From Candidatus Melainabacteria bacterium (lineage in GTDB: Bacteria; Cyanobacteriota; Vampirovibrionia; 2-02-FULL-35-15), in the NCBI GenBank assembly GCA_016201905.1, contig JACQBQ010000010.1, positions 1 to 64,000 on the forward strand: 64,000 nucleotides of DNA, in the 5' to 3' direction. The position numbers and the translations under genes were made by a program. This document shows, in pieces, positions 25,659 to 49,756 of this stretch; within the stretch, counting starts at the first letter, position 1, and every line of letters begins with the position of its first letter. Under the pieces are notes generated by a model. The model was not told where the DNA came from. It did not search any database and saw only the letters and a list, made by a program, of their open reading frames with translations.

Positions 25659-25733
25659 TTAATATGGCAAAGGGGTTAATGGTACGACTGTATCTGTGAG
25701 ATGATATTCAGTGCTTTTTGTTTGCTTACTCAT
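25659..25733 (-). CDS. possible 24-aa peptide coupled to the upstream gene
   Basis: ATG at 25733-25731 overlaps the TAA stop of the upstream leftward gene by one base (TAATG), and an AAGGAG box lies about 9 bases before it. The frame ends at TAA 25661-25659 and encodes MSKQTKSTEYHLTDTVVPLTP plus three residues. The coupling and binding site are good, but the product is very short and unrecognised; it may be a truncated gene. Confidence 0.3.
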   Translation of the reverse strand: MSKQTKSTEYHLTDTVVPLTPLPY

Positions 25734-26080: not shown

Positions 26081-26813
26081 TTATTTTTTCCTCAATCAGC
26101 ATTAAATCATTCTTCTTTTTTCTATTTTCATGAAATTGTTTAAAGCTATCTATATTATTTATCGCTTGGATACCTACTCCATATTGGTTTGCAAGAAGTT
26201 TTTTCTTGTCTTTGGATACCCAAGTCCTAACCGCAGCTTTCCAGTCCTTCATGGGCTGATTACCCACTTTCCAGCCTTTACTTTCGTAAAAATTAAAAAA
26301 TGCGTCAGGGTCAACTGTATAATTTTGCTCCTTTATATATTGTTCAATCTCTTCAATACGAGGTTTTATAAATCCCCTTGCCTTATCCTTATCCTCTTCT
26401 TTATCTTTTTCTATATCCTTATCTTTATCCTTTTCTTTAAGGGTATGGATACCCTTTGCATACTCTTCAAGCAGGTTATGTTTTTTTAGTAAAGATAGAA
26501 CGTGGGCATGAGGTTTAGACTGTTCCTTAAGCTCACCATACTGAAAAGATATAAAACCAACGATATACCAGTTTCCATTTTCTAAGACTTTTATTCTCTC
26601 TTTATCTTGATTTAAAACTTTTAAAGCCTCTTCATATTCAAGATGTTCTCCTATGCAAAATGAGAGCAATTCGAAGTCTGGCTTCCAAACCCCTGAGTTA
26701 TCACAAGTGTCAGTGATATATTGCCAAAGGTTCTTATATTCAACTGGTAGCTTCCTAAACCAAGGGTCTTGCCACTTAGCTGTATCAGTAAACCGCTTCA
26801 TAACACACTCCAA
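26070..26813 (-). CDS. phage replisome organiser-like replication protein
   Basis: Protein of 247 residues. The N-terminus (KRFTDTAKWQDPWFRKLP, ITDTCDNSGVWKPDFELLSF) is typical of phage-encoded replication initiators with a winged-helix fold. A linker of alternating Lys, Asp and Glu (KEKDKDKDIEKDKEEDKDK, about residues 125-144) follows, then a C-terminal domain (DPDAFFNFYESKGWKVG, MKDWKAAVRTW) common in such proteins. It probably binds the element's origin and recruits helicase with the overlapping downstream gene. The origin could lie in the linker DNA or at 27478-27561. Confidence 0.72.
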   Translation of the reverse strand: MECVMKRFTDTAKWQDPWFRKLPVEYKNLWQYITDTCDNSGVWKPDFELLSFCIGEHLEYEEALKVLNQDKERIKVLENGNWYIVGFISFQYGELKEQSKPHAHVLSLLKKHNLLEEYAKGIHTLKEKDKDKDIEKDKEEDKDKARGFIKPRIEEIEQYIKEQNYTVDPDAFFNFYESKGWKVGNQPMKDWKAAVRTWVSKDKKKLLANQYGVGIQAINNIDSFKQFHENRKKKNDLMLIEEKINVD

Positions 26814-26965
26814 AATATTTTCTGACCATTTTTCTTTGAAGAATGTATTAGTTTTCTAATTGCACCTTTAATCTCAATTGCTGTTCCGCAAATGCAAGAC
26901 TTTACTATCCTTAAGTATTTATCATCTAATAGGCACAAAAAAGTCCTATCACGGTATTTATCCAT
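26798..26965 (-). CDS. small hypothetical protein of the element, 55 aa
   Basis: I choose the ATG at 26965 (MDKYRDRTFLCLLDDKYLRIV) because an AAAGGAG box lies just before it; the frame is open upstream to 27010. The product contains CICGTAIEIKGAIRKLI and is basic toward the end. I know no family. It overlaps the replisome-organiser-like gene by 16 bases and is read in the same direction, so it belongs to the leftward module. Confidence 0.5.
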   Translation of the reverse strand: MDKYRDRTFLCLLDDKYLRIVKSCICGTAIEIKGAIRKLIHSSKKNGQKIFWSVL

Positions 26966-27087
26966 GTTTTTATCTCCTTTTTTATTTGCAGGAGAAAACT
27001 TTTGGTACAATTTAAATGACTAGTAAAAACTTACCTTTAGTTTTCCCCTGACTTTTATCAAAATAGCAGGGGTTTTTATTAAGCTAC

Positions 27088-27285
27088 TTACTTTGTAGAT
27101 TTATAAAATAGAGTTGCATCATCTTTTATTTTTGAATATAAGTTTTTGATGGTTTCTCTAATTAGCCAAGAAACACTCCTATCTGTTAACCTAGACATCT
27201 CAATTGCTTGAGACCACGTTTCATCAGGTATGCAAATTGAACGCATTTCGGGTCTAATTCTCTCACTATTAGTATTTGCTGACAC
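27088..27285 (-). CDS. ribbon-helix-helix DNA-binding protein
   Basis: Protein of 65 residues. EMRSICIPDETWSQAIEMSRLTDRSVSWLIRETIKNLY fits the ribbon-helix-helix (CopG/Arc/MetJ) fold: a short strand, a helix, a turn with RSVS and a second helix. Such proteins bind DNA as dimers and act as repressors, antitoxins or plasmid copy-number regulators. It is the first gene of the leftward module and adjoins the palindrome-rich region at 27478-27561, its likely operator. Confidence 0.7.
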   Translation of the reverse strand: MSANTNSERIRPEMRSICIPDETWSQAIEMSRLTDRSVSWLIRETIKNLYSKIKDDATLFYKSTK

Positions 27286-27833
27286 TTACTTTTCCTTTCT
27301 GTGTTGAATATCTTTCTGAAGGTACTTTCACCACACATACTAACAAACAGTTCAGAAAAAATCTTAAGTGTTTTTTCATCTAATCTAAAAACATATTTTT
27401 TTCAACAAATACTACAAAAAATGAGACATAATTGTTAAGTTTCATAACTATCTAGAACCTCTGAAACCTAGTCTCCATGCGGTATAGCCGTGTACACATG
27501 TATACAGTTTTGTGTATCAATGTACACCGTGCGGTATAGCCATGTATACCATTTTGTACAATGTAGAGGAAAAAATTAGAAACATCTCTTACTACAATCT
27601 AGGTCTAGATGAAAACTTTTTATAAGATAATTCAAATGTTTTCTACTACTTACTTTGAAATGGAATGAAACTAGTAGGTTGTGTTATCCTGTTATTTAAT
27701 CTCAATTAATTTCGACGGTATATAAAAAGGCTTGCTAAGTAAAAATAGTGATCCTGTCTTGCGTAAATAAATCAGAAAAAATGTTTTTGGATAAGGGGCT
27801 AAGAGCCATAGGGTCAATGGGTCATAGGGCTAC
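27286..27833. other. noncoding control region between divergent modules
   Basis: A 548-base stretch without a convincing gene, between the leftward RHH gene and the rightward zinc-ribbon gene. Its centre (27478-27561) holds tandem repeats and palindromes listed separately. AT-rich tracts lie on both sides (27350-27425, 27560-27620). It probably contains the divergent promoters and perhaps the element's replication origin. Confidence 0.5.
27478..27561. repeat. tandem TGCGGTATAGCC repeats with clustered TGTAC palindromes
   Basis: The 12-mer TGCGGTATAGCC occurs at 27478-27489 and 27530-27541, 52 bases apart, each followed by a TGTA-rich block. Palindromes within: GTGTACAC (27490-27497), TGTATACA (27499-27506), GTGTA...TACAC (27512-27527) and TTGTACAA (27554-27561). 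A repeated direct motif plus regularly spaced palindromes fits an operator array or an iteron-type origin. Confidence 0.75.
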
Positions 27834-28418
27834 ATGAGTAAAACTACAGTAGAAGACTGTCTGGCACTATCAGTATTCTTTCTTAACAAGAATGGGTCGT
27901 TTAGAAACTCTGGTTCAGGTACTTTGTCATGGTCCGACAGCTTTGGAAATAACGATTGTGTTGCTTACTCAATTAATCTATCTCCTTTTACCTCAGATAT
28001 TGAATTACATTATTCAGTAACAGAAGATTTAAACATAAGCAATGATATAGACCAGTTATTTCTATTGACTACTACTTCTTGCTTCTTAGGTAAAAGATAT
28101 TGGTTTATTTGCTCTTGTGGAAAACGCATAGCTGTTCTCTATCAGCCACCAAATAGTAATTACTTTAGGTGTAGACACTGTCACAATTTAACCTATGAAA
28201 GTAGGAACCTAGTGGCCTATAAAAAGAGACTAGGTAAACCACCGACTTTACTAGAACTTGAGCAGTTAGAAAGTAATATCAAGAGAAGATACTACAATGG
28301 GAAAATAACAAAGAAATACAGAAGATTTAATAAGAAAGCTACTCAATTTTATCTTTTTGTATCAGCATGGCACAAAGATTTTAAGGAAACACTTTTAAAG
28401 AAAGAATTAATAAGTTAG
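27834..28418 (+). CDS. zinc-ribbon protein of mobile elements, function unknown
   Basis: Protein of 194 residues. The central part reads YWFICSCGKRIAVLYQPP then YFRCRHCHNLTYESR: two Cys pairs (CSC and CRHC) that can bind one zinc, and a pattern I know from small proteins scattered on plasmids and phages whose function is not established. The N-terminal part (TLSWSDSFGNNDCVAYSINL) looks beta-rich; the C-terminus is basic (IKRRYYNGKITKKYRRFNKK) and could bind nucleic acid. First gene to the right of the control region. Confidence 0.65.
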   Translation: MSKTTVEDCLALSVFFLNKNGSFRNSGSGTLSWSDSFGNNDCVAYSINLSPFTSDIELHYSVTEDLNISNDIDQLFLLTTTSCFLGKRYWFICSCGKRIAVLYQPPNSNYFRCRHCHNLTYESRNLVAYKKRLGKPPTLLELEQLESNIKRRYYNGKITKKYRRFNKKATQFYLFVSAWHKDFKETLLKKELIS

Positions 28419-28705
28419 CTCTTTTTATCGTCACCTGAAAAATAAAATACAGTTCCGCAAACCAAGGATAAAGCAAATAGTTCAAGAAGTATCCTTTTAA
28501 TATCGACTGATAGACCTACTTCCTCATCTACCACGCCGCCATTTGCTTTGGGTGGAAACCAAATAGGCGAATAACCATATGCTCTTTTAATGCTTACTCC
28601 ACCACAATTTCCCTCACTAATCCATGGAACGCATAACACACAGATAAAAAATACAGTTGCAACATATGCAATTAAAGTTGTCTTTTGTTTATTGGTGATT
28701 TTCAT
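28415..28705 (-). CDS. small membrane protein of the element, 96 aa
   Basis: Two membrane segments are visible (about residues 9-29, TLIAYVATVFFICVLCVPWI, and 71-90, ILLELFALSLVCGTVFYF) separated by an extracytoplasmic loop with the sequence GYSPIWFPPKANGG. I do not recognise a family. The gene overlaps the end of the zinc-ribbon gene by 4 bases on the opposite strand. A two-segment protein in a phage-like element could be a superinfection or defence factor, but nothing in the sequence shows it. Confidence 0.55.
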   Translation of the reverse strand: MKITNKQKTTLIAYVATVFFICVLCVPWISEGNCGGVSIKRAYGYSPIWFPPKANGGVVDEEVGLSVDIKRILLELFALSLVCGTVFYFSGDDKKS

Positions 28706-28861
28706 AATGCCCCTTTAATTCAAATATTTTTACAAAAACTTATAGGTGCCTTTTTACTTTAAAAATATCCTTCTTTGCTTCATGCTTTGCTTTATTGTGC
28801 CAATTATTGGCTCAAGTATATATTGCCTATTATATCTTTGCAACTGTAAGGAACATAAACA

Positions 28862-29083
28862 GTGGCAAAGTGGAATACAAAACTAAGAAAAGCTAGATTA
28901 GATATGGAATTATCACTTTCTCAGGCAGTTAAACTCCTAAATGAATGCCACAAAATTAAAATGAATAGAACACAACTCGGAAAAATTGAAAGAGGAGAAA
29001 TAGACTGTACTGTAGCAAAGTTTAAGGCCCTGTGTGATATTTATTGTGTTGAACCAAACTGGATTTTGGATTGGAAAGAATAA
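28862..29083 (+). CDS. XRE-family helix-turn-helix regulator
   Basis: Protein of 73 residues, a lone HTH domain: LRKARLDMELSLSQAVKLLNE, NRTQLGKIERGEIDCTVAKFKALCDIYCVEPNWIL. The pattern (R-x-x-R, S-Q-x, I-E-R-G, L-x-x-x-Y) fits the Cro/cI fold. It starts at GTG 28862 with AAGGA at 28848-28852. It could be the element's repressor controlling integration or replication. Confidence 0.8.
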   Translation: MAKWNTKLRKARLDMELSLSQAVKLLNECHKIKMNRTQLGKIERGEIDCTVAKFKALCDIYCVEPNWILDWKE

Positions 29084-29088
29084 ACCAT

Positions 29089-29157
29089 TTACCACTTCTG
29101 CATCTCTTTAATTACCTCATCTTGCGTAGTCATCAAATACCCTTGTGTGGTTTTTAA
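29089..29157 (-). pseudogene. remnant of an integrase 3' end
   Basis: On the minus strand this reads LKTTQGYLMTTQDEV-IKEMQKW-stop, nearly identical to the last 22 residues of the intact integrase at 30064-31215 (LKTTQGYLMTTQDEV-VKEMQGW-stop). It includes the catalytic tyrosine segment (TQGYL) but nothing upstream. The similarity starts abruptly at 29157. It is a scar of a second integrase gene or of a duplication, placed 5 bases after the XRE gene. Confidence 0.88.
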
Positions 29158-29163
29158 ACTTAC

Positions 29164-29175
29164 ACCTATATAGGT
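29164..29175. promoter_or_regulatory. 12-bp palindrome ACCTATATAGGT before the cargo gene
   Basis: A perfect 12-base palindrome 30 bases before the ATG of the gene at 29206, right at the edge of the integrase remnant. It could be an operator, for example for the neighbouring XRE protein, or part of a promoter (TATAGG, TATAAG). Function inferred only from position. Confidence 0.4.
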
Positions 29176-29205
29176 ATAAGAAAAAACAGCTACAATGTAT
29201 TCTAG

Positions 29206-30057
29206 ATGGCAAGACTAACAGAAATAGTTAAAGACCAAGACCTCGTATGGCAAGGTTTTTCTTCTTGTACTTCATTCCATGCTTTGATTGAAGACAAATT
29301 AAACCAATACAAGCAATCTCCAGTCGAAAAAAATAGTGATTTTAAAAGTGGTCTTCTTGCTTTAGAAATAAACAATCTAGTTTCTACATTCAATGAACAA
29401 ATTGTAAGTTGGATAATCGCAATAGACAAGTGGTATAAAGATAAGAGTAAGACCCTTCTTTACTACTTGTGTTCAGTTAGCACTGCTGAAGTAAATAGCT
29501 TTATTGACAAATACATTGCAAGATATAAAAAAGAGAAAAATGATTTTTTACAGTCTTATACTTATAACTTAAAAGATGAAATTAAAAATAAAACCTTGGG
29601 AGAAATTGACTATTGCTTTGAATTACTATTTACCACAACATTTTTTAAAGATGATGAGGCAAGTAAAAGACTAATAACTGAAGGGATAAAACAAATCCAT
29701 AATAAAACAAGGCATGCCTATGTTTTATTAAACTCAACAAAACTAGGGTCTTTATTTGTTCCTGAAGGCTATGGTACTAAAGGAGTAAAGGTCTTAGATA
29801 ATGATACAAGTGAGGTGCTTCCAGTAGTTGTAGTCAATAACATTAGCCTTTTACAAACATATCTTTATGTAATCCAGCACACTGCTAATCTTTTTCAACT
29901 CATAATTGGCATATATTCTTTTAACAGATTTGGAAATGATGGAACAATCAAAGAAACAATGTTGGAAGAGGTAAGGACAAAAACTAGTCAATCTGGGTTT
30001 CAATTTGTCACTAATATGTTTGAAGCCTTAAAAAAGTTTCTACTGAAAGCTAGTTGA
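29206..30057 (+). CDS. cargo protein of unknown function, 283 aa
   Basis: I do not recognise this protein. It is rich in helices and looks soluble: YKQSPVEKNSDFKSGLLALEI, FLQSYTYNLKDEIKNKTLG, an aromatic hydrophobic stretch LLQTYLYVIQHTANLFQLIIGIYSF, and a middle beta-like part GSLFVPEGYGTKGVKVLDN. No catalytic motif is clear. It is the only large gene of the element without an evident replication or integration role, and it lies between the integrase remnant and the intact integrase, the place where accessory (often defence) genes sit in satellites. Confidence 0.7.
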   Translation: MARLTEIVKDQDLVWQGFSSCTSFHALIEDKLNQYKQSPVEKNSDFKSGLLALEINNLVSTFNEQIVSWIIAIDKWYKDKSKTLLYYLCSVSTAEVNSFIDKYIARYKKEKNDFLQSYTYNLKDEIKNKTLGEIDYCFELLFTTTFFKDDEASKRLITEGIKQIHNKTRHAYVLLNSTKLGSLFVPEGYGTKGVKVLDNDTSEVLPVVVVNNISLLQTYLYVIQHTANLFQLIIGIYSFNRFGNDGTIKETMLEEVRTKTSQSGFQFVTNMFEALKKFLLKAS

Positions 30058-30063
30058 TTAGCT

Positions 30064-31215
30064 TCACCACCCCTGCATCTCTTTAACCACCTCATCTTGC
30101 GTAGTCATCAAATATCCCTGCGTAGTCTTTAAATCTGAGTGTCCAAGTGCTAATGAAATAATATTCAATGGCTTTCCTGCATTGGCATTTATAGTTGCAA
30201 AAGTTCTTCTAAGTCCATGAGGGGTTACATTTATTTCAACTCTTTTTGACAGTCTTTTTATTTTCTGTTGTAGAGTATATCTATCAAAAGGTCTAGCTTC
30301 AATAGTGGTTCTATGAACTGTAACAAAAAAGTTTTCCAAATTAGTTCTTGGCCTGACACTTAAATATTCAAGCAGATTGTCATATAAACTATTACAAATA
30401 CCAACATATCTATTTTTCTTACCCTTACCTAAATAAACAAATATCCTTTTATTTGTAAGATCAACATCTTGTAACCTTAAGTTAGTAACTTCACCATTTC
30501 TAAGGCCCGCATAGCCTAAAATAGCGACTAAGGTCTTATTTAATAAGACATCATAGTTAGATTGGCCTCTATGCCACTTAGAAGCCTCAAGAAGCAAAGA
30601 ATTAAACTGCTCAAGTGTACAATGTGTTCTTTTAGGTGGATAAACTCTTTTGGGCCTAAATTGCCTAACTTCATCTAATAAGTTTTTATTAACCAGATTT
30701 TTAGCAATCAAATATTTAAGAAACGACTTAACTGCTGAATGAATATTAAACTTTAGGCTATATCTTTCTGGGCTAATATTCCCAAATACGTACCTTATAA
30801 AATCAAGAGAAATAATTGGAGTTTTGCCATATCTTCTAGGTATATGGGCCAAATAATAATCTAAGCAATGGGTATAAATCTCCATTGTCCGTGGACTTAA
30901 TGGCTTGCCAGTTAAATTACCATTTTCACACCACTTAAGCCACTCTAATTTCAATTCATTTAAATCGTTTAAGTTTGATAAGTGGTTATTTACTATATTC
31001 TGATTTGCATTAAGTCTTTTCCAGTCAAAATATGTTTGCCAAGGTATTACATACTGAAACTTACTTTTCCTTGGGATAGTAATAGCCGGTAGAGAACCAC
31101 TCTTTACAAGCCTTATTACTGTTTTTTTAGACTTTCTTAAGTCTTTTGCAATATCTGCTATATTTAAAATGTTTTCCACTTTGCCCACTTTAAAAATTGG
31201 GACAAAATGGGACAC
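30064..31215 (-). CDS. int: tyrosine recombinase with fused excisionase-like HTH
   Basis: Protein of 383 residues. Residues 17-67 (NIADIAKDLRKSKKTVIRLVKSG...) form an excisionase-type winged HTH with the SG-LPA-I pattern. A core-binding domain follows (about 85-190) and the catalytic domain has Arg239 (GYAGLRNGE), Lys264 region (LGKGKKNR), His333/Arg336 (PHGLRRT), His359 (LGHSDL) and Tyr368 (TQGYL): the complete set. It drives integration at the tRNA 35 bases from its start. TGGGACA repeats overlap its first codons, so translation may start later, for example at the GTG codon 10. Confidence 0.93.
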   Translation of the reverse strand: MSHFVPIFKVGKVENILNIADIAKDLRKSKKTVIRLVKSGSLPAITIPRKSKFQYVIPWQTYFDWKRLNANQNIVNNHLSNLNDLNELKLEWLKWCENGNLTGKPLSPRTMEIYTHCLDYYLAHIPRRYGKTPIISLDFIRYVFGNISPERYSLKFNIHSAVKSFLKYLIAKNLVNKNLLDEVRQFRPKRVYPPKRTHCTLEQFNSLLLEASKWHRGQSNYDVLLNKTLVAILGYAGLRNGEVTNLRLQDVDLTNKRIFVYLGKGKKNRYVGICNSLYDNLLEYLSVRPRTNLENFFVTVHRTTIEARPFDRYTLQQKIKRLSKRVEINVTPHGLRRTFATINANAGKPLNIISLALGHSDLKTTQGYLMTTQDEVVKEMQGW

Positions 31216-31249
31216 GATTAACCAGTCATTACATTGCTGAAAGTCTTAT

Positions 31250-31325
31250 GGGCGCTTAGCTCAGTTGGTAGAGCACTTGTTTGACGTACAAGTGGTCAGA
31301 GGTTCAAGTCCTCTAGCGCCCACCA
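31250..31325 (+). tRNA. tRNA-Val (anticodon GAC)
   Basis: A 76-base tRNA with acceptor GGGCGCT/AGCGCCC, D stem GCTC/GAGC, anticodon stem CTTGT/ACAAG with loop TTGACGT (anticodon GAC, reading GUC/GUU), T stem AGAGG/CCTCT with TTCAAGT, and an encoded CCA. Bases 31249-31287 are the attR copy of the 39-base repeat, so the 5' half comes from the element and the gene has been rebuilt intact. Its promoter must now lie in element DNA, overlapping the integrase gene start. Confidence 0.98.
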
Positions 31326-38628: not shown

Positions 38629-41388
38629 ATGAGACCAATTAATAATTTTAAAATTATTCTACTCTCAATTTTTCTATTATTATTTTTTAATATTCAAGAG
38701 GTTAATTCAATCGAGCAAATTAACATGAAGTCAAGCGTTAAGTACATTACTGAAAGAGATGGAATACGCGAGTATTTTTTACCAAATGGACTAAAGGTCT
38801 TATTAAAACAAAATCATTCAATTCCACTTATATCATTTTCAATCTGGTATAAAGTAGGCTCACAAAATGAAACAAAAGGAATTTATGGACTTGCTCACTT
38901 TTTAGAACATATGATGTTTAAAGGTACAAATAAATACAAAAGAGGCGAAATATCAGCAATCATCCAAAAATATGGGGGGATTTTTAATGCTTTTACATCG
39001 TGTGACGGCACTGCTTATTATGAAACTATTTCACCAAAGTATTTAGAAAAAGTAATTGAAATTGAATCTGACAGAATGAAAGGATCACTTTTAAGTCAAG
39101 ATGAACTTAATTTAGAAAGAACTGTGGTTTTATCAGAACTTGAAGGTGATTTAAATAATCCTGTAACACTACTTGATCAAACTTTACGTTTCACAGCTTA
39201 TGAAAAAGGTCCATATAAAAATCCAACCATTGGTTATGAAAAAGATATAAGAAGCATTGATTCAAAAATAATGAGAGATTTTTACAACAGATTTTATAAT
39301 CCAAACAATGCAACTATTGTACTAGTTGGAGATTTTAATGAAAGCAATGCAACAAATCTCATTGAAAAGCATTTTGGAAGCATTAAAAACACAAACAGCA
39401 CAAATGACCATATCATCATAGAAAAAGATAGCCCTCAAAAAGAAGAAAAGAGAATAACAGTTAAAAGATCGGGTTCTTTTAAACTTTTAGAAATTGCTTA
39501 TCATACAACTGATGCAAAAAATAAAGATCTCTATCCTTTAAATGTAATTGAAGAAATTTTAATCAAAGGCAAAAAAAGCCCTCTAAATAAGGTACTAGTT
39601 GAAGCTGGGTTAGCAACTGAGGTCTCAGGTGGTGCTGAAATAAACAAGGAGCCAGGATTATTTTACTTTCTGGTCTCTTTAACACCAAAAGCTACCCACA
39701 AAAAAGTTGAGACAATTATTACAAATGAAATAAATAAATTAATTAAAAATCCCCCAAGTGAGGAAGAGATACTGGCAGCTAAAAATAGGATTAAAGCAGA
39801 TTATCTATTTAATTTAGATGGAACTTATAATCAAGCATTAAACATAGGATACTTTGAATCAGTTAATGACTGGAAGCAGTCAACAGAGTGGCTAGATGAA
39901 ATATCAAAAGTCACTAAAGAAGAAATTTCAACCGCGTTAAAAAATTATTTTCAAAAAGAAAATAGAACTGTTGGCTATTTTATTCCTAAGATGCAAAAAG
40001 GAACTAAATATGAAAATTTACCAATAAATTTAAGCAGAACACAGCATTACAAGAACACAAGCCTGGTAGAGTCAACTAAACAAAGCAGCTTAAGCAGTGA
40101 ATTTCAAAGACTCTTTAAATATAAAGAATTAAACTTAAAAGACGGTTCAGAATTATTGATTTACAAGAATATAGATCTTCCCATCACTTATTTAAGTGGC
40201 ATTATAAAAGGTGGTTCAAGCTTACTCCCAAAAGAAGATGAATTGAACTGTGAAATAATAGCAAGGACTCTTGAAAAGGGCAGTAAACACTATACAAAAG
40301 AGCAAATTGAAAGCATCTTAGACAAAACAGGTTCTCATATTGATTTTGGATGCGACGAAGAATCTTTTAAATTTAATGTGGCTTCAACAAATGATAATTT
40401 AATTCAAACAGTTGATTTATTTACAGATATCTTGATGAATCCAATATTTACAGAGAAAGAAACAAATAAAGAAAAGGATAAGCTAATTGCTGAAATAATC
40501 GAGTCAAAAGATAGTACGGAGGAGATAGGAAGAAGGCGATTTAATCAAATTATTTACACAAAAGGTCATCCTTATTATTCAAATGATTTTGAAGAAGATA
40601 TAAAAATAATAAAAAATATAAATAATAAAAATTTGTTCAGCTATCATGAGAGATTAATCAAGAATAACAAAGCTATTATTTCAATAACATCCAATCTAAA
40701 GGACAAAGATATAAAAAGTGTGTTAGATATACTTGAAAAAAACATATTCAATGGAACTCCAAAAACTGAAGGCAAGATAAACATTCCAGATACATTATTA
40801 AGAGATATTCCAAAGACAGAAAGCATTAACGTTGAAGATAAAATGCAATCAGATGTTTACTTAGGACATGCAGGTAATCTAAGAAGAACAGATCCAGACT
40901 TTTACAAGCTTCATATTGCAAATTACATCTTTGGTGGTAGTTCCCTGGCAAGCAGATTAAGCAAGAGAATAAGAGATGATTCAGGACTTGTTTACAGGAT
41001 TTACTCATATATCAATGCATCCCATGGCAAAGGAGAATTTGGAATTTATTTTGGAGCAAACAATAAAAATGTTGACAAAGCAATAGAATTAATCAAAGAA
41101 GAATTAAATAAGTTTGTTACAAAAGGTATAACAGAAGACGAACTAAAAAAAGCAAAAGCATCACTAATTGACTCCTTTATTTCAAGAAATCTTTCTACAA
41201 ACAGAAGCATTTCAAGTACAATAGCTGGAATAGAATTTTATGACTTAGGCAATAATTACATAAACAATTATCCAAAAATAATTGATTCATTAAAGCTCGA
41301 TGAAATAAATACAGCAATTAAAAATCACATTTTCCCGGATAAATTAAATATTGTTATTGCTGGCGAATACAAAAACATAAAAAAATGA
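38629..41388 (+). CDS. periplasmic M16-family zinc peptidase, two-domain
   Basis: Protein of 919 residues with a signal peptide (about residues 7-27). The first half has the inverted zinc motif HFLEH (H90, E93, H94) and the downstream glutamate region TVVLSELEGDL. The second half repeats the fold without the motif (IARTLEKGSKHYTKEQIESIL), as usual for a full-length clamshell M16 enzyme that degrades peptides. The substrate is unknown. Its stop codon's last base is the first base of the 157-bp structured repeat. Confidence 0.92.
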   Translation: MRPINNFKIILLSIFLLLFFNIQEVNSIEQINMKSSVKYITERDGIREYFLPNGLKVLLKQNHSIPLISFSIWYKVGSQNETKGIYGLAHFLEHMMFKGTNKYKRGEISAIIQKYGGIFNAFTSCDGTAYYETISPKYLEKVIEIESDRMKGSLLSQDELNLERTVVLSELEGDLNNPVTLLDQTLRFTAYEKGPYKNPTIGYEKDIRSIDSKIMRDFYNRFYNPNNATIVLVGDFNESNATNLIEKHFGSIKNTNSTNDHIIIEKDSPQKEEKRITVKRSGSFKLLEIAYHTTDAKNKDLYPLNVIEEILIKGKKSPLNKVLVEAGLATEVSGGAEINKEPGLFYFLVSLTPKATHKKVETIITNEINKLIKNPPSEEEILAAKNRIKADYLFNLDGTYNQALNIGYFESVNDWKQSTEWLDEISKVTKEEISTALKNYFQKENRTVGYFIPKMQKGTKYENLPINLSRTQHYKNTSLVESTKQSSLSSEFQRLFKYKELNLKDGSELLIYKNIDLPITYLSGIIKGGSSLLPKEDELNCEIIARTLEKGSKHYTKEQIESILDKTGSHIDFGCDEESFKFNVASTNDNLIQTVDLFTDILMNPIFTEKETNKEKDKLIAEIIESKDSTEEIGRRRFNQIIYTKGHPYYSNDFEEDIKIIKNINNKNLFSYHERLIKNNKAIISITSNLKDKDIKSVLDILEKNIFNGTPKTEGKINIPDTLLRDIPKTESINVEDKMQSDVYLGHAGNLRRTDPDFYKLHIANYIFGGSSLASRLSKRIRDDSGLVYRIYSYINASHGKGEFGIYFGANNKNVDKAIELIKEELNKFVTKGITEDELKKAKASLIDSFISRNLSTNRSISSTIAGIEFYDLGNNYINNYPKIIDSLKLDEINTAIKNHIFPDKLNIVIAGEYKNIKK

Positions 41389-41544
41389 ACCGACTTCTTT
41401 TTAACTTCGCTATCCCTGGGGCAAGCCCGCAGGGTATTTCGCGAAGTTAATGACTTTGTCACCAGTCGTCGGAGAAGTCGGTTTGTTATTCGTCGCTTAT
41501 ATCTCTCGTGGCAAGCCACGGAGTATTACGCTCCTTCATAATAA
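41388..41544 (+). repeat. 157-bp structured repeat, copy A
   Basis: Differs from copy B (49600-49756) at two positions only. The first 96 bases are bounded by perfect 11-bp inverted repeats AACCGACTTCT (41388-41398) and AGAAGTCGGTT (41473-41483). Nested inside are AACTTCGC/GCGAAGTT and CCCTG/CAGGG around GGGCAAGCCC. The remaining part has CGTGGC-AA-GCCACG. The repeat fills the whole gap between the stop codons of the M16 peptidase and convergent ileS, so it may end transcription in both directions. Confidence 0.95.
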
Positions 41545-41545
41545 A

Positions 41546-44419
41546 TTAATCCAAACCTTCAACAGCTTTAGCACATGGCAGACAAATAGTCTTATGTTTA
41601 TGATCCTTGCCTATATCAATAGAATACTTCCAACAGCGGGGACATTTTTCACCATCAGCCTTGGTTACTACTACAGTACAGTTCTCATCAGAGATGAGAG
41701 AATACTCATCATAATTACCTTTCTTATATACATCATTTAAATCATGAATAACAATTTGTGACACAATAAATATTGTTTCAAGCTCAGTTTTATTAAAGAG
41801 TTTCATTGTTTGATATTGCTGTATATCATTATTAAAATATAAATGTAATTTAGCTTCAAGTGATTTGCCAATTTTTTTATCCGTTCTTGCAATTTCTAAT
41901 GCTTTATTAGCTAAATCCCTTATATTAATAAAGTTCACTAAATGACTATCCTTACCAATGTTTTTAACTTCCCATCTAAGGGCCAAGACAGAAGTAGCAC
42001 TGTTAATTTTATATGGCATGTATCGCCAAATATCTTCTGCCAAATGAGGCAACACCGGAGTAAGTACTTCAAGTAAAAAGTTTAATATCTGACTTATTGT
42101 GGTTTGGACAGATCTCCTTGACTTAGATTTTTTACCGGCTGTATATAACCTATCTTTTACAACATCAAAATAAAACCCAGACAAATCTAAAGCACAAAAA
42201 TTTTGTAATATCTGATAGTACTTATAAAATTCATATTTATTAAAAGCATCACTTACAGCTAGTCTTTTTTCATCCAAACAAAACAGAGCATATTTATCTA
42301 TGTTCCATAAATCTTGATATTCAACAATATCCTTTTTTAAATCAAAATCAAAAAGATTACTTAAAGCAAATCTTGCAGTATTTCTAATGTTTCTATAGAC
42401 CTCTGAAAGCTGCTTAAACATTGTTTGACCAATTTTCATATCAGAAGAATAGTCAGTACTAGCTACCCAAAGTCTTAAAATGTCTGCTCCATATTCATTT
42501 ATTACTTTTTCAGGATCAACAACATTTCCAAGGGATTTTGACATCTTTCGCCCATTTTCATCTAAAACAAATCCATGTGTTAAAACCGATTTATAAGGTG
42601 CTTTACCTTTAAGTGCAACAGAAGTTAACAGCGACGACTGAAACCAGCCTCTGTGTTGATCACTTCCTTCCAGGTACATTTCACTTGGAGAGCCTTGATT
42701 ATTTTTATCAAATAAATCTTTGCTTTGATCTACTACTGAATAATGCGTAGACCCAGAGTCAAACCATACATCCATAATATCTGTCTCTTTTTGAAACGTT
42801 GTACTACCGCACTGACATTTATATCCAGCTGGCAATAAGGACTCTGTATCTTTTTCCCACCATATATCAGTACCACTTACTTCAACAAGTTTTGCTATGT
42901 GATCAACTATTTGTTTATTAAGATGATCTTTATTACAACCCTTACAATAAAATGCTGGTATTGGTACACCCCATACTCTCTGCCTGCTTATACACCAGTC
43001 AGTCCTGGATTCAACCATTGAATAAATTCTATTTCTGCCAATTTCAGGTATCCACTTAACGTTATCAATTTCTTTCAATGCTTTTTCTCTAAACTTTTCA
43101 ACACTGCAAAACCATTGCTCAGTTGCTCTAAATATAATTGGTGTCTTAGACCTCCAACAGTGCGGATAACTATGAAAATATTCTTCTTCTTTTATAAGTG
43201 CACCTTTTTTTTGCAAAAGTTCAATTACTTTTTGATTACCTGCTTTATGAACATAAAGTCCTGATAATTCAGCCCCAGCATCATCTGTAAGAATTCCTTT
43301 TGCAGTTACTGGAGACAAAACTTTTAATTTATATTTTTGACTAATACCAAAATCTTCCAAACCATGACCTGGCGCAGTGTGAACACAGCCTGTCCCGGTG
43401 TCTAAAGTTACATGCTCTCCAAGGATAATTGGACTTTCCCTGCCATAAAGAGGATGAAGACAAATACTATGCTCTAAATCTTTACCATTAATTTTTTCAG
43501 AGATAATACATTCTTCAGAAATCTTATTATTAAACTGAGACAATAATTTTTCAGCCACAAGTAAATAGCCAAAAGTTTTTGAATGTGCAACGACATAAGT
43601 AAAATCCTTATGCAAGCAAATTGCCATATTGCCAGGCAATGTCCATGGAGTTGTAGTCCAGATTACTACTTTTAAATCATTGAACTTTTCCAGTTTCTTT
43701 GCACTAGAAGACAATTTAGAAACAGGAAATGCAACATAAACACTTAAAGATTTATAGTTTTCTACATACTCTACTTCAGCTTCAGCTAAAGCAGTCTGAC
43801 ATGTAGCACACCAATAAACAGGCTTTAGTCCGCGATATATATAACCCTTATTAACCATTTCACCAAAAAGTTTTAACTGCTGGGCTTCAAACTTTGGGTA
43901 AATAGTCATATATGCACCAGTCCAATCACCTAATACACCTAGCCTTTTAAATTTTTCCTCTTGTAACCTTCTGTTCTTCATTACAAATTCTGTACATTGC
44001 TTCCGAATATCTAAAGGTGATAATTGTTCTGAATCATTTTTCTTCTTATCTTTTGATATTGCACTTTCTATAGGAAGTCCATGACAATCAAAACCAGGTA
44101 AATATGGAGAGTAATAACCTTGCAATGTTTTATACTTAACAACAATATCCTTTAATATTTTGTTTAAAGCTGTACCAATGTGAATATTGCCCGAGCTTAA
44201 GTAAGGTGGTCCATCGTGCAGTAAGAATCTTCCAATATTATTTTTTTTTCTGTCTTCTAATACTTTTTCATAAATTTTATTTTCAGACCAAAACTTTTGG
44301 ATTTCTGGTTCACGGCGAGGTCCATCCCCTTTCATAGGAAAATCTGTTCTGGGCAAATTAAGGGTATCCTTATAATCAATTGCTTCTTGTAATTCTTTAT
44401 TTTCCTGCATAGAGATCAC
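41546..44419 (-). CDS. ileS: isoleucyl-tRNA synthetase
   Basis: Protein of 957 residues. HIGH motif as SSGNIHIGTALNK, KMSKS as GRKMSKSLGN, the editing domain between (VIWTTTPWTLPGN, HTAPGHGLEDF) and a C-terminal zinc site CPRCWKY...CLPCAKAVEGL. It charges tRNA-Ile and edits valine. It is the last gene of the leftward operon rnc-argB-ileS (24 bases after argB). No T-box leader is seen. A polypeptide start at ATG 44419 or at the second Met (residue 4) is possible. Confidence 0.97.
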   Translation of the reverse strand: MISMQENKELQEAIDYKDTLNLPRTDFPMKGDGPRREPEIQKFWSENKIYEKVLEDRKKNNIGRFLLHDGPPYLSSGNIHIGTALNKILKDIVVKYKTLQGYYSPYLPGFDCHGLPIESAISKDKKKNDSEQLSPLDIRKQCTEFVMKNRRLQEEKFKRLGVLGDWTGAYMTIYPKFEAQQLKLFGEMVNKGYIYRGLKPVYWCATCQTALAEAEVEYVENYKSLSVYVAFPVSKLSSSAKKLEKFNDLKVVIWTTTPWTLPGNMAICLHKDFTYVVAHSKTFGYLLVAEKLLSQFNNKISEECIISEKINGKDLEHSICLHPLYGRESPIILGEHVTLDTGTGCVHTAPGHGLEDFGISQKYKLKVLSPVTAKGILTDDAGAELSGLYVHKAGNQKVIELLQKKGALIKEEEYFHSYPHCWRSKTPIIFRATEQWFCSVEKFREKALKEIDNVKWIPEIGRNRIYSMVESRTDWCISRQRVWGVPIPAFYCKGCNKDHLNKQIVDHIAKLVEVSGTDIWWEKDTESLLPAGYKCQCGSTTFQKETDIMDVWFDSGSTHYSVVDQSKDLFDKNNQGSPSEMYLEGSDQHRGWFQSSLLTSVALKGKAPYKSVLTHGFVLDENGRKMSKSLGNVVDPEKVINEYGADILRLWVASTDYSSDMKIGQTMFKQLSEVYRNIRNTARFALSNLFDFDLKKDIVEYQDLWNIDKYALFCLDEKRLAVSDAFNKYEFYKYYQILQNFCALDLSGFYFDVVKDRLYTAGKKSKSRRSVQTTISQILNFLLEVLTPVLPHLAEDIWRYMPYKINSATSVLALRWEVKNIGKDSHLVNFINIRDLANKALEIARTDKKIGKSLEAKLHLYFNNDIQQYQTMKLFNKTELETIFIVSQIVIHDLNDVYKKGNYDEYSLISDENCTVVVTKADGEKCPRCWKYSIDIGKDHKHKTICLPCAKAVEGLD

Positions 44420-44443
44420 TGATCTAAAAATATATCTATTTTT

Positions 44444-45325
44444 CTACTTTGTAATCATAGTACCAATACCAGTATTTGTTAAAACTTCAAGCAAAATAGA
44501 ATGTTTTAAGTTGCCATTAATTATATGAACTGCATCTACACCTGATTTTAAAGCACTAATTGCAGCTTTAGTTTTAGGAATCATTCCTCCGGAAATAATC
44601 TTTTTCTTAATTAGTCTTTCAGCTTCAATAATATTTATTTTTGAGATAAGTGAGTCAGGATTTTTAGAATTTTTTAATACACCCCGTGTATCTGTCATCA
44701 ATATCAATTTAGAAGATTTAAGTGCTGAAGCTATAGAACTTGCAACGCTATCAGCATTTATATTGTAGTTTTGACCCGAATGATCAGCCCCAACCGAGCT
44801 TATAACAGGAATAAAACCTTTTTCCACCAGAGTCATAAGAATTGAAGTATCAATTGATTTCACTTCGCCAATAAAACCATATTTTTTCATTTTTGAACTT
44901 GGTTTAGCTGAAAAAAGTTTTCCATCCTTACCACATAGACCAATAGCTTTAGCACCTGAAACATTAATTAAATTAACCAGGTCCTTTTGTACTTTTCCTA
45001 CAAGAACCATTTCAACTATTTCCATAGTTTTTTTATCCGTAACTCTTTGCCCATCAATAAATTTAACGGGTAGATTTAACCTCTTTGACATCATGCTAAT
45101 TTCTGGTCCACCACCATGAACAACAATTAGTTTTATTCCAACACAGCTGAGCAAGGCAAAATCATTTATTGTTTCTTTTTTTAATTCAGGATCGTTCATA
45201 GCTGAACCACCATACTTAACTACAAAAATTTTCTGATTAAACTTTTGAATATACGGCAAAGCCTGTGAAAGAACTTCTACTCTCTGCATTGACAACACAC
45301 TATTCTTTTTTATCTTGTTAGGCAT
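44444..45325 (-). CDS. argB: acetylglutamate kinase
   Basis: Protein of 293 residues with KIFVVKYGGSAM near the N-terminus, VVHGGGPEISMM, GLCGKDGKLF, NINADSVASSIASAL and KIISGGMIPKTKAAISAL. It phosphorylates N-acetylglutamate in arginine synthesis. In cyanobacteria this enzyme is controlled by PII; no PII gene is in the window. It overlaps rnc by one base, and ileS follows. Confidence 0.96.
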   Translation of the reverse strand: MPNKIKKNSVLSMQRVEVLSQALPYIQKFNQKIFVVKYGGSAMNDPELKKETINDFALLSCVGIKLIVVHGGGPEISMMSKRLNLPVKFIDGQRVTDKKTMEIVEMVLVGKVQKDLVNLINVSGAKAIGLCGKDGKLFSAKPSSKMKKYGFIGEVKSIDTSILMTLVEKGFIPVISSVGADHSGQNYNINADSVASSIASALKSSKLILMTDTRGVLKNSKNPDSLISKINIIEAERLIKKKIISGGMIPKTKAAISALKSGVDAVHIINGNLKHSILLEVLTNTGIGTMITK

Positions 45326-46065
45326 TATTTGATTTTAATACTTCCTGTCCTATATTTTAAAACCATTAAAGCATTTCTTGCAGCTTCCTGACTAGCATCT
45401 TTTTTGGTTTTACCAACACCTCTAGCTAATTCATTATTATTTAAAAATACACCAACTTCAAATCTTTTGTTATGATCAGGACCAGCCTCAGATAAGGTCC
45501 TATATACTGGCAAATCAAAACTGTTACCCTGCAGATATTCCTGCAATACAGCCTTAAAATTATCTTTCTCATTGTTTTTGTCAGCATATTCAACATGCTC
45601 TTTCCAGTAACTGATTATAAAATCCCTTGTTTTATCAGCTCCACACTCATAATAAATCACTGCAAGTACTGCTTCCATCGAGTCAGCAAGAATAGAAACC
45701 GGAAGTGATTTTTTTTCATTTTTCCCAAGTAAGAGATATCTTTTTAAATCTAGTTTTACAGCTACCTCAGCTAAGACTTTCTCGCTAACCACAAAAGCTC
45801 TTAGCTTACTCAATTGACCTTCTGAATAAACACTATATTTACTCATTAAGTATTCACTTACAACTAGCTTTAAAACCGCATCACCAAAAAATTCCAGACG
45901 TTCATTATCAATTAAACTCTTCGTAGATACTTCCTTAACATATGAAGTATGAGTCAAAGCTGTATCCAATAGTTGTAAATTTCTTACAGTCAATCCTAAT
46001 GATTTAGAAAAAGACACTAAATCTTTTTTTCTGTTTTCGCTAAGTTCAACAAGTTTTCTAATCAT
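45325..46065 (-). CDS. rnc: ribonuclease III
   Basis: Protein of 246 residues. The catalytic domain has the signature NERLEFFGDAVLKLVV and the second acidic site DSMEAVLAVIYYECG. The C-terminal double-stranded RNA-binding domain spans about residues 165-240 (FKAVLQEYLQGNSFDLPVY, GKTKKDASQEAARNALMVL). It processes rRNA precursors and structured RNAs; the structured repeats in this window could be substrates. First gene of rnc-argB-ileS, divergent from ybeY. Confidence 0.96.
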   Translation of the reverse strand: MIRKLVELSENRKKDLVSFSKSLGLTVRNLQLLDTALTHTSYVKEVSTKSLIDNERLEFFGDAVLKLVVSEYLMSKYSVYSEGQLSKLRAFVVSEKVLAEVAVKLDLKRYLLLGKNEKKSLPVSILADSMEAVLAVIYYECGADKTRDFIISYWKEHVEYADKNNEKDNFKAVLQEYLQGNSFDLPVYRTLSEAGPDHNKRFEVGVFLNNNELARGVGKTKKDASQEAARNALMVLKYRTGSIKIK

Positions 46066-46154
46066 TTCTAACTCTGTTCTATTAATATACTATTTATACC
46101 TAACTTAGTGGTTGTACTTAAAAAATATCTGCTCCTCGAGCAAATTAAAAAGCA

Positions 46155-46640
46155 TTGAACAAAAGAACTACAAATAAAACAATTGAGATTGTAATTAGGC
46201 CCAGTTCAAAAATTAGGTCTAGACAATGGTGGAGTAAACAGCTTAAAAAATCAAAAAAACTGATTTCAAAATATTTGAATAATAGTACAAAAAGAAATTT
46301 AATTAGAAATTCGTCATTAACACTACTTCTTACCAATAACAAGGAAATACAAAATTTGAATAAAAGATTTAGAAATATTAATAGATCAACTGATGTCTTA
46401 TCTTTCCACCTAAACAAAAAAGAGCAATTAAAGAAAAAATACTTAGGTGATATTGTAATAGCTACAGAGTTTGCAAAAAAACAAGCGATAAAAAAAAGGA
46501 TACCGCTAGAAACAGAGTTACAAATGCTATTAATTCATGGTTACTTACATCTACTCGGCTATGATCATAAATTAATAAAACAAGCAAAGACTATGTTTTC
46601 ACTACAAAATAAAATTTTATTAATGATGCTTACAAAATAA
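46155..46640 (+). CDS. ybeY: endoribonuclease YbeY (16S 3'-end maturation)
   Basis: Protein of 161 residues ending with the metal-binding motif HGYLHLLGYDH (three His that bind zinc) and the preceding RSTDVLSFHL and LGDIVIATEFA segments typical of the family. YbeY matures the 3' end of 16S rRNA and acts in ribosome quality control. The N-terminus is very basic (KIRSRQWWSKQLKKSKK). It begins the rightward group ybeY-cysS-unknown gene. Confidence 0.94.
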   Translation: MNKRTTNKTIEIVIRPSSKIRSRQWWSKQLKKSKKLISKYLNNSTKRNLIRNSSLTLLLTNNKEIQNLNKRFRNINRSTDVLSFHLNKKEQLKKKYLGDIVIATEFAKKQAIKKRIPLETELQMLLIHGYLHLLGYDHKLIKQAKTMFSLQNKILLMMLTK

Positions 46641-46655
46641 ACAATTAACAAACTA

Positions 46656-48062
46656 ATGAATAAGCTTACCGTATACAATAATCTGACAAGAAAAAAAGAA
46701 GTTTTTGAACCACTTCATCCCCCTACTGTTAATATTTATACTTGCGGACCTACCGTATATGATCACTCACATATTGGTCATGCAAGATCATCCATAACAT
46801 GGGATTTTATAGTTAGATTTTTAAAATTTATGGATTATAAAGTCACCTGGACAAGAAACATCACTGACATAGATGACAAAATAATCAATAAAGCAAAAGA
46901 GATTAATATACATCCAGATAAAGTTGCAAGAATTTACACTTATTCATTTCAGGAAGATATGCTTGCACTAGGTATTGAATGGCCTGATTTTGAGCCACGT
47001 GCAACACAACATCTATCACAAATGTTTAACTTTATAAATGGGTTAATTAAAAATGGTTCAGCCTATCACATTGACAATGATGTATATTTTTCTACTACCA
47101 CATTTAAAAACTACGGGAGACTAAAAGGACAATCAATATCAGAACTTGAAAAGGGTTTTGGAAGAATAGAACCAAATCCAAAGAAAAAACATCGGCTTGA
47201 TTTTGCATTATGGAAAGGTGTTAAAGAACCAAATGAATATGGATTTGAAAGCCCTTGGGGTAAAGGAAGACCCGGTTGGCATCTTGAATGCTCTACAATG
47301 AATTACTCATTATTTGGAGAGACCATTGACATTCATGGGGGCGGCGATGACTTAGTATTCCCACATCATGAAAATGAAATCGCACAGTCAGAATCTTTTA
47401 CTGGTAAACAATTTGCCAAATACTGGATGCACAACGGAATGATTATGGTAGATGGTAAAAAAATGGCAAAGTCAGAAGGAAATTTTATAACCATCAAAGA
47501 CGCTCTAAAAGATTCTACCAGCAATGCAATCAGATTCTTTGTCTTAAACAGTCACTATAGAATGCCTTTAAACTGCACCCGAGAAGCTATTATTGCTGCA
47601 CAAAATGGAATAAACAGACTTCAAGAAGCATTGACAGACTTTGAAGAGGATGAAAGCTCTAACAATTCAAATAAAAATAAATTTAATAATGAAATTTTAA
47701 ATGAGTTTAAGAATGTAATGTTAGATGACTTTAATAGCCCAAAAGCTTTGTCTGTTTTATTCAAATTGACAGACTTAATTAATATTGAAAAGGACAAAAA
47801 AACAAAGAATGAATTACAGGGGACATTGAACTACTTATCAAAAGTGCTAGGGCTAAATTTAATTACCACTAATACTGTTGATTCAACAACAAAAGACAAA
47901 ATTCTTAGTAAACTAATAGACGAACTTATATCCTGGAGAACAGAATCAAAGCTAAAAAAAGATTTTAGCAATGCAGATAAAGTCAGAGAAATACTAAACA
48001 AAAGCAAAATAGAAGTTAAAGACTTATCAGAAAACAAATACAGATGGCAAATAAAATTATAA
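46656..48062 (+). CDS. cysS: cysteinyl-tRNA synthetase
   Basis: Protein of 468 residues. HIGH motif in YDHSHIGHARSSI, zinc ligands beginning with the Cys in YTCGPTVYD and WHLECSTM, GGGDDLVFPHHENEIAQSE, and KMSKS as KKMAKSEGNF. It charges tRNA-Cys. The start follows ybeY by 15 bases. The last 19 bases overlap the start of the downstream secreted protein gene. Confidence 0.97.
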   Translation: MNKLTVYNNLTRKKEVFEPLHPPTVNIYTCGPTVYDHSHIGHARSSITWDFIVRFLKFMDYKVTWTRNITDIDDKIINKAKEINIHPDKVARIYTYSFQEDMLALGIEWPDFEPRATQHLSQMFNFINGLIKNGSAYHIDNDVYFSTTTFKNYGRLKGQSISELEKGFGRIEPNPKKKHRLDFALWKGVKEPNEYGFESPWGKGRPGWHLECSTMNYSLFGETIDIHGGGDDLVFPHHENEIAQSESFTGKQFAKYWMHNGMIMVDGKKMAKSEGNFITIKDALKDSTSNAIRFFVLNSHYRMPLNCTREAIIAAQNGINRLQEALTDFEEDESSNNSNKNKFNNEILNEFKNVMLDDFNSPKALSVLFKLTDLINIEKDKKTKNELQGTLNYLSKVLGLNLITTNTVDSTTKDKILSKLIDELISWRTESKLKKDFSNADKVREILNKSKIEVKDLSENKYRWQIKL

Positions 48063-48889
48063 AAAAATACAGAAAAATATTATTCGTTATTTTACTTCTT
48101 TCATTAATACTGTCTAATACAAATATCGTATATGCAATAAAGGTAAAGGAAATAGATAGGCAGGTATTATTAACTAATTTCAATCATATAAACATTACAC
48201 TGGAATCATCAAAGGATTTAAAGCAATTAAAAAAATTAATCAAATATAAAAGACCCAGAGCAATTTATATCGAACAGTGGGTTTTAGATACATCAGGTAA
48301 TAAAAGTTTATTAGAGAAATTACAAAAGATTTCTCAGAAATACAATACAAAACTTTATCTTATTATCGGAAGAAATAGCTGGTTTGGAAAAAGAGGTGTA
48401 CTACACACATTAGAAGCTCTAAACACATATGGAAAACACGTTGATGGTATTGTGTTAAGAGTTGAACCACATAAAGTTAATGTGTGGAAAGACGATCTAG
48501 GTATTCAAGCACAAATATTAAACCAAATGCTTGATGCATATTCAGCAATTTACATAGAATCAAAAAAAACGGATAAACACTTTCTGGCAGAATTTCCCTT
48601 CTGGTTAAGTGACTTTAAAGGACCAAAAAAAACTTTTTCACAAAATGCATGTGATTATACCGATAAAATAATATTTCTGTTGGATAACACAGATAAATTA
48701 AAAACTCTGGATATAAACTGGAATGATGTTTCTTGCAATTACATTATTGATTTAACCAAAAGAGCAAATAATCAAACCGAAGAACTAATTCATGAGACCT
48801 ATGAGATATTAAAATCAAAGCTTATTTTTTATTCAAATTTTAATGGCTTTTTAATTGATTCTGATTCAACGCTAAAAGAGTCTGAATAG
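48044..48889 (+). CDS. exported protein of unknown function, 281 aa
   Basis: It starts inside the end of cysS (19-base overlap, coupled) and has a signal peptide (about residues 10-31, ILFVILLLSLILSNTNIVYA). The body alternates strands and helices (AIYIEQWVL, TKLYLIIGRNSWFGKRG, VDGIVLRVEPHKVNVWKDD, HFLAEFPFWLSDF), which suggests a TIM-barrel-like fold as in some glycoside hydrolase-related proteins, but I cannot name a family. Its stop codon lies in a 10-base direct repeat bordering a small structured insertion. Confidence 0.65.
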   Translation: MANKIIKKYRKILFVILLLSLILSNTNIVYAIKVKEIDRQVLLTNFNHINITLESSKDLKQLKKLIKYKRPRAIYIEQWVLDTSGNKSLLEKLQKISQKYNTKLYLIIGRNSWFGKRGVLHTLEALNTYGKHVDGIVLRVEPHKVNVWKDDLGIQAQILNQMLDAYSAIYIESKKTDKHFLAEFPFWLSDFKGPKKTFSQNACDYTDKIIFLLDNTDKLKTLDINWNDVSCNYIIDLTKRANNQTEELIHETYEILKSKLIFYSNFNGFLIDSDSTLKESE

Positions 48890-49000
48890 GGTGAGGACTG
48901 TCCAACCATGGAAAGATGGCTCTGAGGAGCAACATCACCGCCCGCCAAAGGCAAGGCTCGTCAAGGCGGTAAGAGCCACCTGAATAATTACTGAATAGGG
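48882..49000 (+). repeat. 99-bp structured insert flanked by 10-bp direct repeats
   Basis: CTGAATAGGG occurs at 48882-48891 and 48991-49000, on both sides of a 99-base GC-richer segment. The segment folds on paper into CCAT/ATGG (48906-48919), GGCTCT (48918-48923) with AGAGCC (48972-48977), and CCGCC (48938-48942) with GGCGG (48965-48969) enclosing GCC-AAA-GGC. This fits a small inserted element with target-site duplication; a structured RNA gene is the alternative. The gene's stop codon is kept by the duplication. Confidence 0.65.
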
Positions 49001-49063
49001 ATATCTCTATAAATAGCATTGATTTATATGTATTAATGCCGATTTATTCATTTGAGAACTCAA

Positions 49064-49600
49064 ATGAATACAATAAAAAAAATTATAACCTTATTGTTAA
49101 TTGTCAACTTACTGAATTTTACTTTTACCAATAGCACAAAAGCACTGTCAATAGTGCTCCCTAAACAAAATCAAACCATCTTTAATAAAAATAAATTTTC
49201 AGGAAAATGGAACATGCAGACAATTGTTACAAAATCTACTTGCCCTTATGTATTTGTAGGAAGTACAACAAAATCTGATTTAGAGATAAAACCTTTACTG
49301 AATTTAAATTCAAAGAAAATCACGCTAAAAGCATTTTGGAAAGGTGGCAAATGGAGTAAAAGTAGAAGCACTATAAAACTACTAAACGAAAAAGAAGCAA
49401 TTACAGAAAGAGTAACAGAATTTATTACAAAGGATAAAAATAATTGGAAAGCAATCTTAATAGATCACTTAAAATTAGACGAAGATAACATAATGCGCTC
49501 AGAAAGCATTGTAATACAATACAAAAACGGTCTGGCTGTTGGTGAGTATAAAACATTTTCAATACTTACAAAATCAGAAGAATCAGAACTTACCGAATAA
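49064..49600 (+). CDS. exported protein of unknown function, about 178 aa
   Basis: I choose ATG 49064; the frame is open from a TTG at 49052, four residues earlier. The N-terminus (MNTIKKIITLLLIVNLLNFTFTNSTKALS) is a signal peptide with cleavage likely after KA. The rest looks like a small beta-barrel-like domain: FSGKWNMQTIVTKSTCPY, KKITLKAFWKGGKWSKS, ESIVIQYKNGLAVGEYKTF. No family recognised. Its stop codon's last base begins repeat copy B. Confidence 0.65.
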   Translation: MNTIKKIITLLLIVNLLNFTFTNSTKALSIVLPKQNQTIFNKNKFSGKWNMQTIVTKSTCPYVFVGSTTKSDLEIKPLLNLNSKKITLKAFWKGGKWSKSRSTIKLLNEKEAITERVTEFITKDKNNWKAILIDHLKLDEDNIMRSESIVIQYKNGLAVGEYKTFSILTKSEESELTE

Positions 49601-49756
49601 ACCGACTTCTTTTTAACTTCGCTATCCCTGGGGCAAGCCCGCAGGGTATTTCACGAAGTTAATGACTTTGTCACCAGTCGTTGGAGAAGTCGGTTTGTTA
49701 TTCGTCGCTTATATCTCTCGTGGCAAGCCACGGAGTATTACGCTCCTTCATAATAA
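49600..49756 (+). repeat. 157-bp structured repeat, copy B
   Basis: Same length and orientation as copy A (41388-41544), with two base differences (one turns GCGAAGTT into ACGAAGTT, the other is in the CAGTCGTCGG region). As with copy A, its first base is the last base of a stop codon of a rightward gene. It lies upstream of the kdp operon, 93 bases before kdpF, so it could also shield kdp from read-through. Confidence 0.95.

Follow-up and report, generated by a model that had tools for sequence, protein, structure and literature searches.

A recently active family of small, structured mobile repeats bounded by ATAA in Candidatus Melainabacteria

Introduction

Insertion sequences of the IS200/IS605 type have a fixed tetra- or pentanucleotide as their target, integrate 3′ of it and require hairpins at both ends (PMC7290912, PMC6006769), and the layout of these elements and of their non-autonomous derivatives (PMC7290912, PMC6006769, PMC8266576) is as seen in the repeats described here. 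Other small repeats with which ours can be compared are the REP/BIME/REPIN repeats with their RAYT proteins, the miniature inverted-repeat elements (MITEs) and the palindromic elements of Rickettsia.

An earlier note, made from the letters of a 64,000-nt stretch of a Candidatus Melainabacteria genome (the window; contig JACQBQ010000010.1), had described a pair of 157-bp repeats set exactly at stop codons. It took them for an intergenic mobile palindrome (ERIC/RUP-like) or a terminator-type RNA, of a kind that it did not recognise. We find that the repeats belong to an interspersed family, and that this family is real, structured, mobile and recently active, and of a kind already known, the small non-autonomous hairpin elements. 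Below, G numbers denote genomes and L numbers denote loci.

Results

Direct comparison of the sequences confirmed that the two window copies lie at 41388–41544 (copy A) and 49600–49756 (copy B), 8.2 kb apart in the same orientation, and are identical at 155 of 157 positions (98–99% identity in alignments). Both the 11-bp inverted arms (AACCGACTTCT and AGAAGTCGGTT) and the hairpin CGTGGC-AA-GCCACG pointed out by the earlier note were found in the repeat, and the first base of each copy is indeed the final one of a stop codon. Copy A occupies the whole gap between the convergent stop codons of an M16-family peptidase gene (38629–41388, plus strand; Pfam PF00675/PF05193), which lies upstream of it, and ileS, encoding isoleucyl-tRNA synthetase (41546–44419, minus strand; PF00133/PF06827). 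Copy B begins on the last A of the TAA that ends a 182-codon ORF (49052–49600, plus strand) with no assigned function and no Pfam match. Elsewhere in the window (25267–31325), 39 nt from the 5′ part of tRNA-Val(GAC) are perfectly repeated, at 25267–25305 and 31249–31287, on either side of about 6 kb in which a tyrosine integrase gene (30064–31215, minus strand; PF00589) lies beside the intact tRNA-Val(GAC); this region looks like a small integrated element.

BLAST of the host genome (2.28 Mb in 59 contigs) revealed about 20 copies, mostly 97–99% identical. There were 24 matches, of which 12 cover the whole query and others are truncated or at contig ends; one had 76% identity, and the weakest match is probably due to chance. 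Diverged copies were also present in related genomes of the same bacterial family (Candidatus Melainabacteria from groundwater). When 11 genomes of the family were searched with a covariance model built from six diverged copies of these relatives, 8 of them gave matches, 79 in all, with G007 alone contributing 34; G005 and G006 were without the element. A pattern scan of one genome per species (84,980 species) matched only metagenome assemblies of Candidatus Melainabacteria; one of these, RIFCSPHIGHO2_02_FULL_34_12, has the same copies as G007. A class-wide search of 382 genomes added only weaker matches, in three genomes that belong to a second family, and those that were read have the same anatomy. 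In one relative from another bacterial family (L212, G037:C13), the loop of the second main hairpin (H3, below) contains an insertion of about 40 nt.

The repeat matched nothing among plasmids (PLSDB), phages (INPHARED) and viral contigs. An Rfam search of the window returned only rRNA and tRNA above the gathering threshold, leaving the repeat without an Rfam family, and a literature search found no such repeats described in Melainabacteria. The family is, so far, unnamed in the databases and literature searched.

The repeat consists of an outer stem with a hairpin, H1, nested inside it, a small variable hairpin, and a further hairpin, H3, outside the stem. In copy A (plus strand), fold and covariation place the 5′ arm of the outer stem at 41389–41398, paired with the 3′ arm at 41473–41482, and H1, with tip GGCAAGCC and a bulged T in GGG-T-AT, at 41403–41448; H3, at 41496–41531, has the same tip. 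The repeat is strongly structured: the folding energy of copy A is −60.2 kcal/mol (z = −6.5), and none of 200 shuffles was as stable. Across 68 distinct sequences and a structure of 46 pairs, aligned by fitting to the covariance model, which favours the structure, 89.5% of cells form standard pairs and 35 of the 46 pairs show two-sided changes. The structure had a covariation score of 0.337, whereas slid versions and shuffles reached no more than 0.069 and 0.128, respectively. In the outer stem (helix 1), 94% of cells are paired and 10 of 13 pairs have two-sided changes; compensatory changes can be seen there by eye, as the stem reads ACCGACTTC, ACTGACTTC, ACGACTTCC, AGCGCCTTC or AACGCCTCC, each with a partner that pairs with it. 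In a plain MAFFT alignment, differences of one base in length put the stem out of register, so that RNAalifold overlooked most of the structure; alignment to the covariance model cured this. Judging from these patterns of substitution, selection acts on the folded structure, as a single strand. The refuting condition set by the earlier note, just these two copies in the genome and no conserved structure, did not hold.

H1 and H3 are homologous and in direct orientation, both approximating ATC-stem-GCAAGC-stem-GGGTATTNCGC; the shared hairpin tips noticed earlier are of one GCAAGC type. Within one element the two hairpins often match in tip and feet (GGCAAGCC/GGCAAGCC, AGCAAGCT/AGCAAGCT, AGCAAGACT/AGCAAGACT), and their tips change together in several subfamilies. 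The feet are of [GA]CTATC and TATATC/CACATC types. H1 is preceded by CTAT in most copies and H3 by TTATAT, CACAT or AAAT; taken as candidate guides at the 5′ foot of a hairpin, as in IS200/IS605 derivatives, these are partly complementary to the ATAA target.

Shorter forms also occur. Derivatives of about 70 nt, in which a deletion has fused H1 to H3 and both ATAA ends are kept, number at least two in the host and four in G007, and forms of about 85 nt retain the outer stem and H3. Some copies (L014 and L016; also L138, G000:C32, and L139, G000:C55) lack the first 19 nt and share a start at position 20; a helicase-like gene has one of L138 and L139 fused to its 3′ end and gains codons from it. 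This shared start could be a biological deletion or an effect of misassembly.

The tetranucleotide ATAA stands on the left of 62 of 68 copies and on the right of 62 of 68, the bases outside being variable, although in the window just 1.2% of the positions on each strand begin an ATAA. Everything between the two ATAA, about 155–165 nt, makes up the mobile unit, and not the 96-base part that the earlier note had singled out. In copy A the left target is ATGA (41385–41388), which contains the TGA stop of the peptidase gene, and the inserted unit (41389–41544) ends in its own ATAA (41541–41544). In copy B the left ATAA (49597–49600) is both the target and the TAA stop of the ORF, and the unit (49601–49756) ends in ATAA at 49753–49756; all are on the plus strand. 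The 11-bp inverted repeat is internal to the unit, whose true ends are not inverted repeats (ATAAACCGAC... as against ...CTCAAATAA or ...TTCATAATAA). The left ATAA belongs to the target DNA, and the right ATAA forms the end of the unit.

We joined the flanks of copies from G003, G008, G009 and G010 and searched for them in congeners and near relatives. Four empty orthologous sites were found, each with a single ATAA/TAA at the junction: those of L041 and L029 of G003 (empty in G005), of L031 of G010 (empty in G005 and G009) and of L046 of G003 (empty in G010). A fifth orthologous site is empty too, though not base-exact. Four relatives (G005, G006, G010 and G002) lack the element at the site of copy A, and their M16 and ileS neighbours are separated by 3, 12 or 27 nt or overlap. 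Since orthologous sites without the element keep a single ATAA/TAA, the element moves; together with copy number, near-identity within a genome and covariation, this upholds the idea of an intergenic mobile palindrome.

The flanks of two copies contain other repeats. In the downstream flank of L010 (G000:C12:125706–125760) lies a degraded element of another subfamily (AATAAAGCGCCTTC...), and a host copy has inserted exactly at its initial ATAA, yielding a tandem of two subfamilies. The right flank of L094 (G008 and G003) holds another dispersed repeat of about 48 nt, in a stretch with the palindrome CTTTTTGTGTGATTTATTCACCAAAAAG, of which G008 has dozens of copies.

Single-strand transposition of the HUH/Y1 type is favoured because the left target is fixed and asymmetric, the same four bases stand on the right, terminal inverted repeats are lacking and similar hairpins lie near both ends in direct orientation. 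We consider it fairly probable that the repeat is a non-autonomous element that inserts one way just 3′ of ATAA, itself ends in ATAA and is moved in trans by an IS200/IS605-like (HUH/Y1) transposase, the enzyme and the single-strand route being proposed by analogy. The element would be carried as folded single-stranded DNA by a transposase that recognises it on the left by the outer stem/H1 and on the right by H3, binding there and cutting after the left (target) ATAA and the right (element) ATAA. Insertion at stop codons or in intergenic DNA would be tolerated, as it would do little harm.

The ATAA on both sides of the element and the single ATAA/TAA at empty sites fit equally well a miniature element for which a DDE transposase, acting on double-stranded DNA, would be responsible, with ATAA as a 4-bp target-site duplication. 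A fixed, asymmetric target and non-inverted ends, as found here, are unusual for DDE elements, and none of the ORFs in the stretches examined was recognised as a repeated transposase. We regard this explanation as unlikely, though with an appreciable chance of being right because the empty sites fit both mechanisms. Alternatively, a site-specific recombinase (IS110-type, serine or tyrosine) might insert the unit, ATAA being the shared core: insertion is directional and without terminal inverted repeats, and donor and target have the same tetranucleotide. We think this improbable, judging by the IS110 and tyrosine types: neither the host nor G007 has an IS110 transposase, and the tyrosine integrase of the window belongs to the separate, tRNA-flanked 6-kb region.

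As to the HUH/Y1 enzyme that we favour, no Y1_Tnp match at E ≤ 0.001 and no TnpB were found in the host genome. The draft assemblies searched yielded no autonomous element with the same ends and a TnpA; looking for a longer version turned up deletion derivatives only. Strong Y1 genes are present in G005 and G006, both of which are without the element. Copy orientation was compared with the GC skew of the surroundings to look for a lagging-strand bias of the IS200/IS605 kind: a bias is seen in the host (16/22) and G003 (5/5) but not in G007 (18/37), which has the most copies, and so is inconsistent between genomes. We know of no counterpart to the long outer stem in IS200/IS605 ends. Tentatively, the family might form a lineage-specific class of mobile single-strand-DNA elements, with ends recognised by an HUH enzyme outside the Y1/TnpB models. 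Such a class would be marked by an outer stem, a pair of direct hairpins that co-evolve, and the use of ATAA at the right end as well as for the target; we give this a small but real chance.

A special case of the HUH/Y1 explanation names the enzyme: the repeats would be a REP family, and the RAYT-like (Y1) proteins encoded in these genomes, which belong to the same superfamily, would mobilise it. RAYT-like genes occur in five of the eight element-bearing genomes, with a remnant in G003, and the host has two. However, G001 and G008 have the element without a RAYT match, G005 and G006 have RAYTs without the element, and no copy lies next to a RAYT-like gene. In addition, GTAG or CGTC is absent at the hairpin foot, and the host RAYT-like genes carry a different palindrome of their own, TGTAACC-GGTTACA. 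Mobilisation by these proteins is thus doubtful, and we rate it as a slim prospect. The RAYT-like Y1 genes (L169 and L176 in the host; L168–L186 in relatives) usually have a 17-nt palindrome, TGTAACCnnnGGTTACA, near their start. It is dispersed, with 6 occurrences in 346 kb of host DNA and 2 in 630 kb of G007, and may be the REP of these genes.

Exact placement at stop codons, true of copies A and B, does not hold as a rule: 9 of 64 copies lie exactly at a stop codon, and in 6 more an ORF runs a few codons into the left end, giving 15 at or running into a gene 3′ end. ATAA sites in the window number 15 at stop codons, 203 in intergenic DNA and 1300 inside genes; about 4 stop-codon copies would be expected if intergenic and stop sites were equally used, so that the excess is small. 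No full-length copy was called within a long gene. As the M16 and ileS neighbours occur without the element in relatives, the stop codon is the gene's own and adjoins the insertion. A TAA with an A in front of it is a target, and insertion there does little harm, which is why stop codons are used; their use is a by-product of the ATAA target. Repeats exactly at stop codons can, in general, reflect a target preference and not a role in translation or termination.

The very stable fold, the strong covariation and the copies at gene ends would also suit a functional RNA (a terminator, an RNase III site or an mRNA 3′-end stabiliser) placed there by selection. Yet orthologous sites are empty, the excess at stop codons is small, and the ATAA at both ends would be left unexplained. 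The genes around the 64 copies are divergent in 19 cases, convergent in 16 and co-directional in 28, with no orientation bias, and on neither strand does the region of copy A contain a terminator-like site (GC-rich stem, then T-run). This mixed orientation and the lack of such a site at copy A make a terminator role, as suggested in the earlier note, unlikely, and we hold a functional RNA of any of these kinds to be very improbable.

Discussion

A structured non-autonomous element with many subfamilies, empty sites and an orphan enzyme makes the search for the mobilising transposase a testable one. Several known systems resemble it in part. RUP, ERIC, NEMIS, Nezha and other MITEs are likewise small, dispersed, intergenic and non-autonomous, and to this extent the label ERIC/RUP-like was apt. 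Those are, however, miniature inverted-repeat elements, whereas our element has an internal inverted repeat, true ends that are not inverted repeats, and ATAA as its target (TA for RUP).

Rickettsia palindromic elements (RPEs) are also dispersed palindromes, of about 100–150 nt. What RPEs are known for is insertion within genes in the reading frame, whereas copies of our element avoid gene interiors. In R. conorii, RPE-4 and RPE-6 are CGTC-tagged (PMC3733652). The REP/BIME/REPIN repeats, with RAYT, share with our family an intergenic location, hairpins, many copies and possible HUH mobilisation. Our element differs from them in being larger, in having two direct hairpins and an outer stem, in lacking a GTAG/CGTC tag and in being unlinked to RAYT.

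PATEs, which are non-autonomous IS200/IS605 derivatives, differ from the present element in that it has a long outer stem, identical left and right tetranucleotides and no TnpA/TnpB partner found. Because the draft assemblies gave no autonomous TnpA partner, we say that it works like a PATE and not that it is one. Like PATEs, the element is short and protein-free, with a fixed tetranucleotide 5′ of its left end and one at its right end, and has the target once at empty sites; its subterminal hairpins are similar, point the same way, share a tip and have an unpaired T in their stems.
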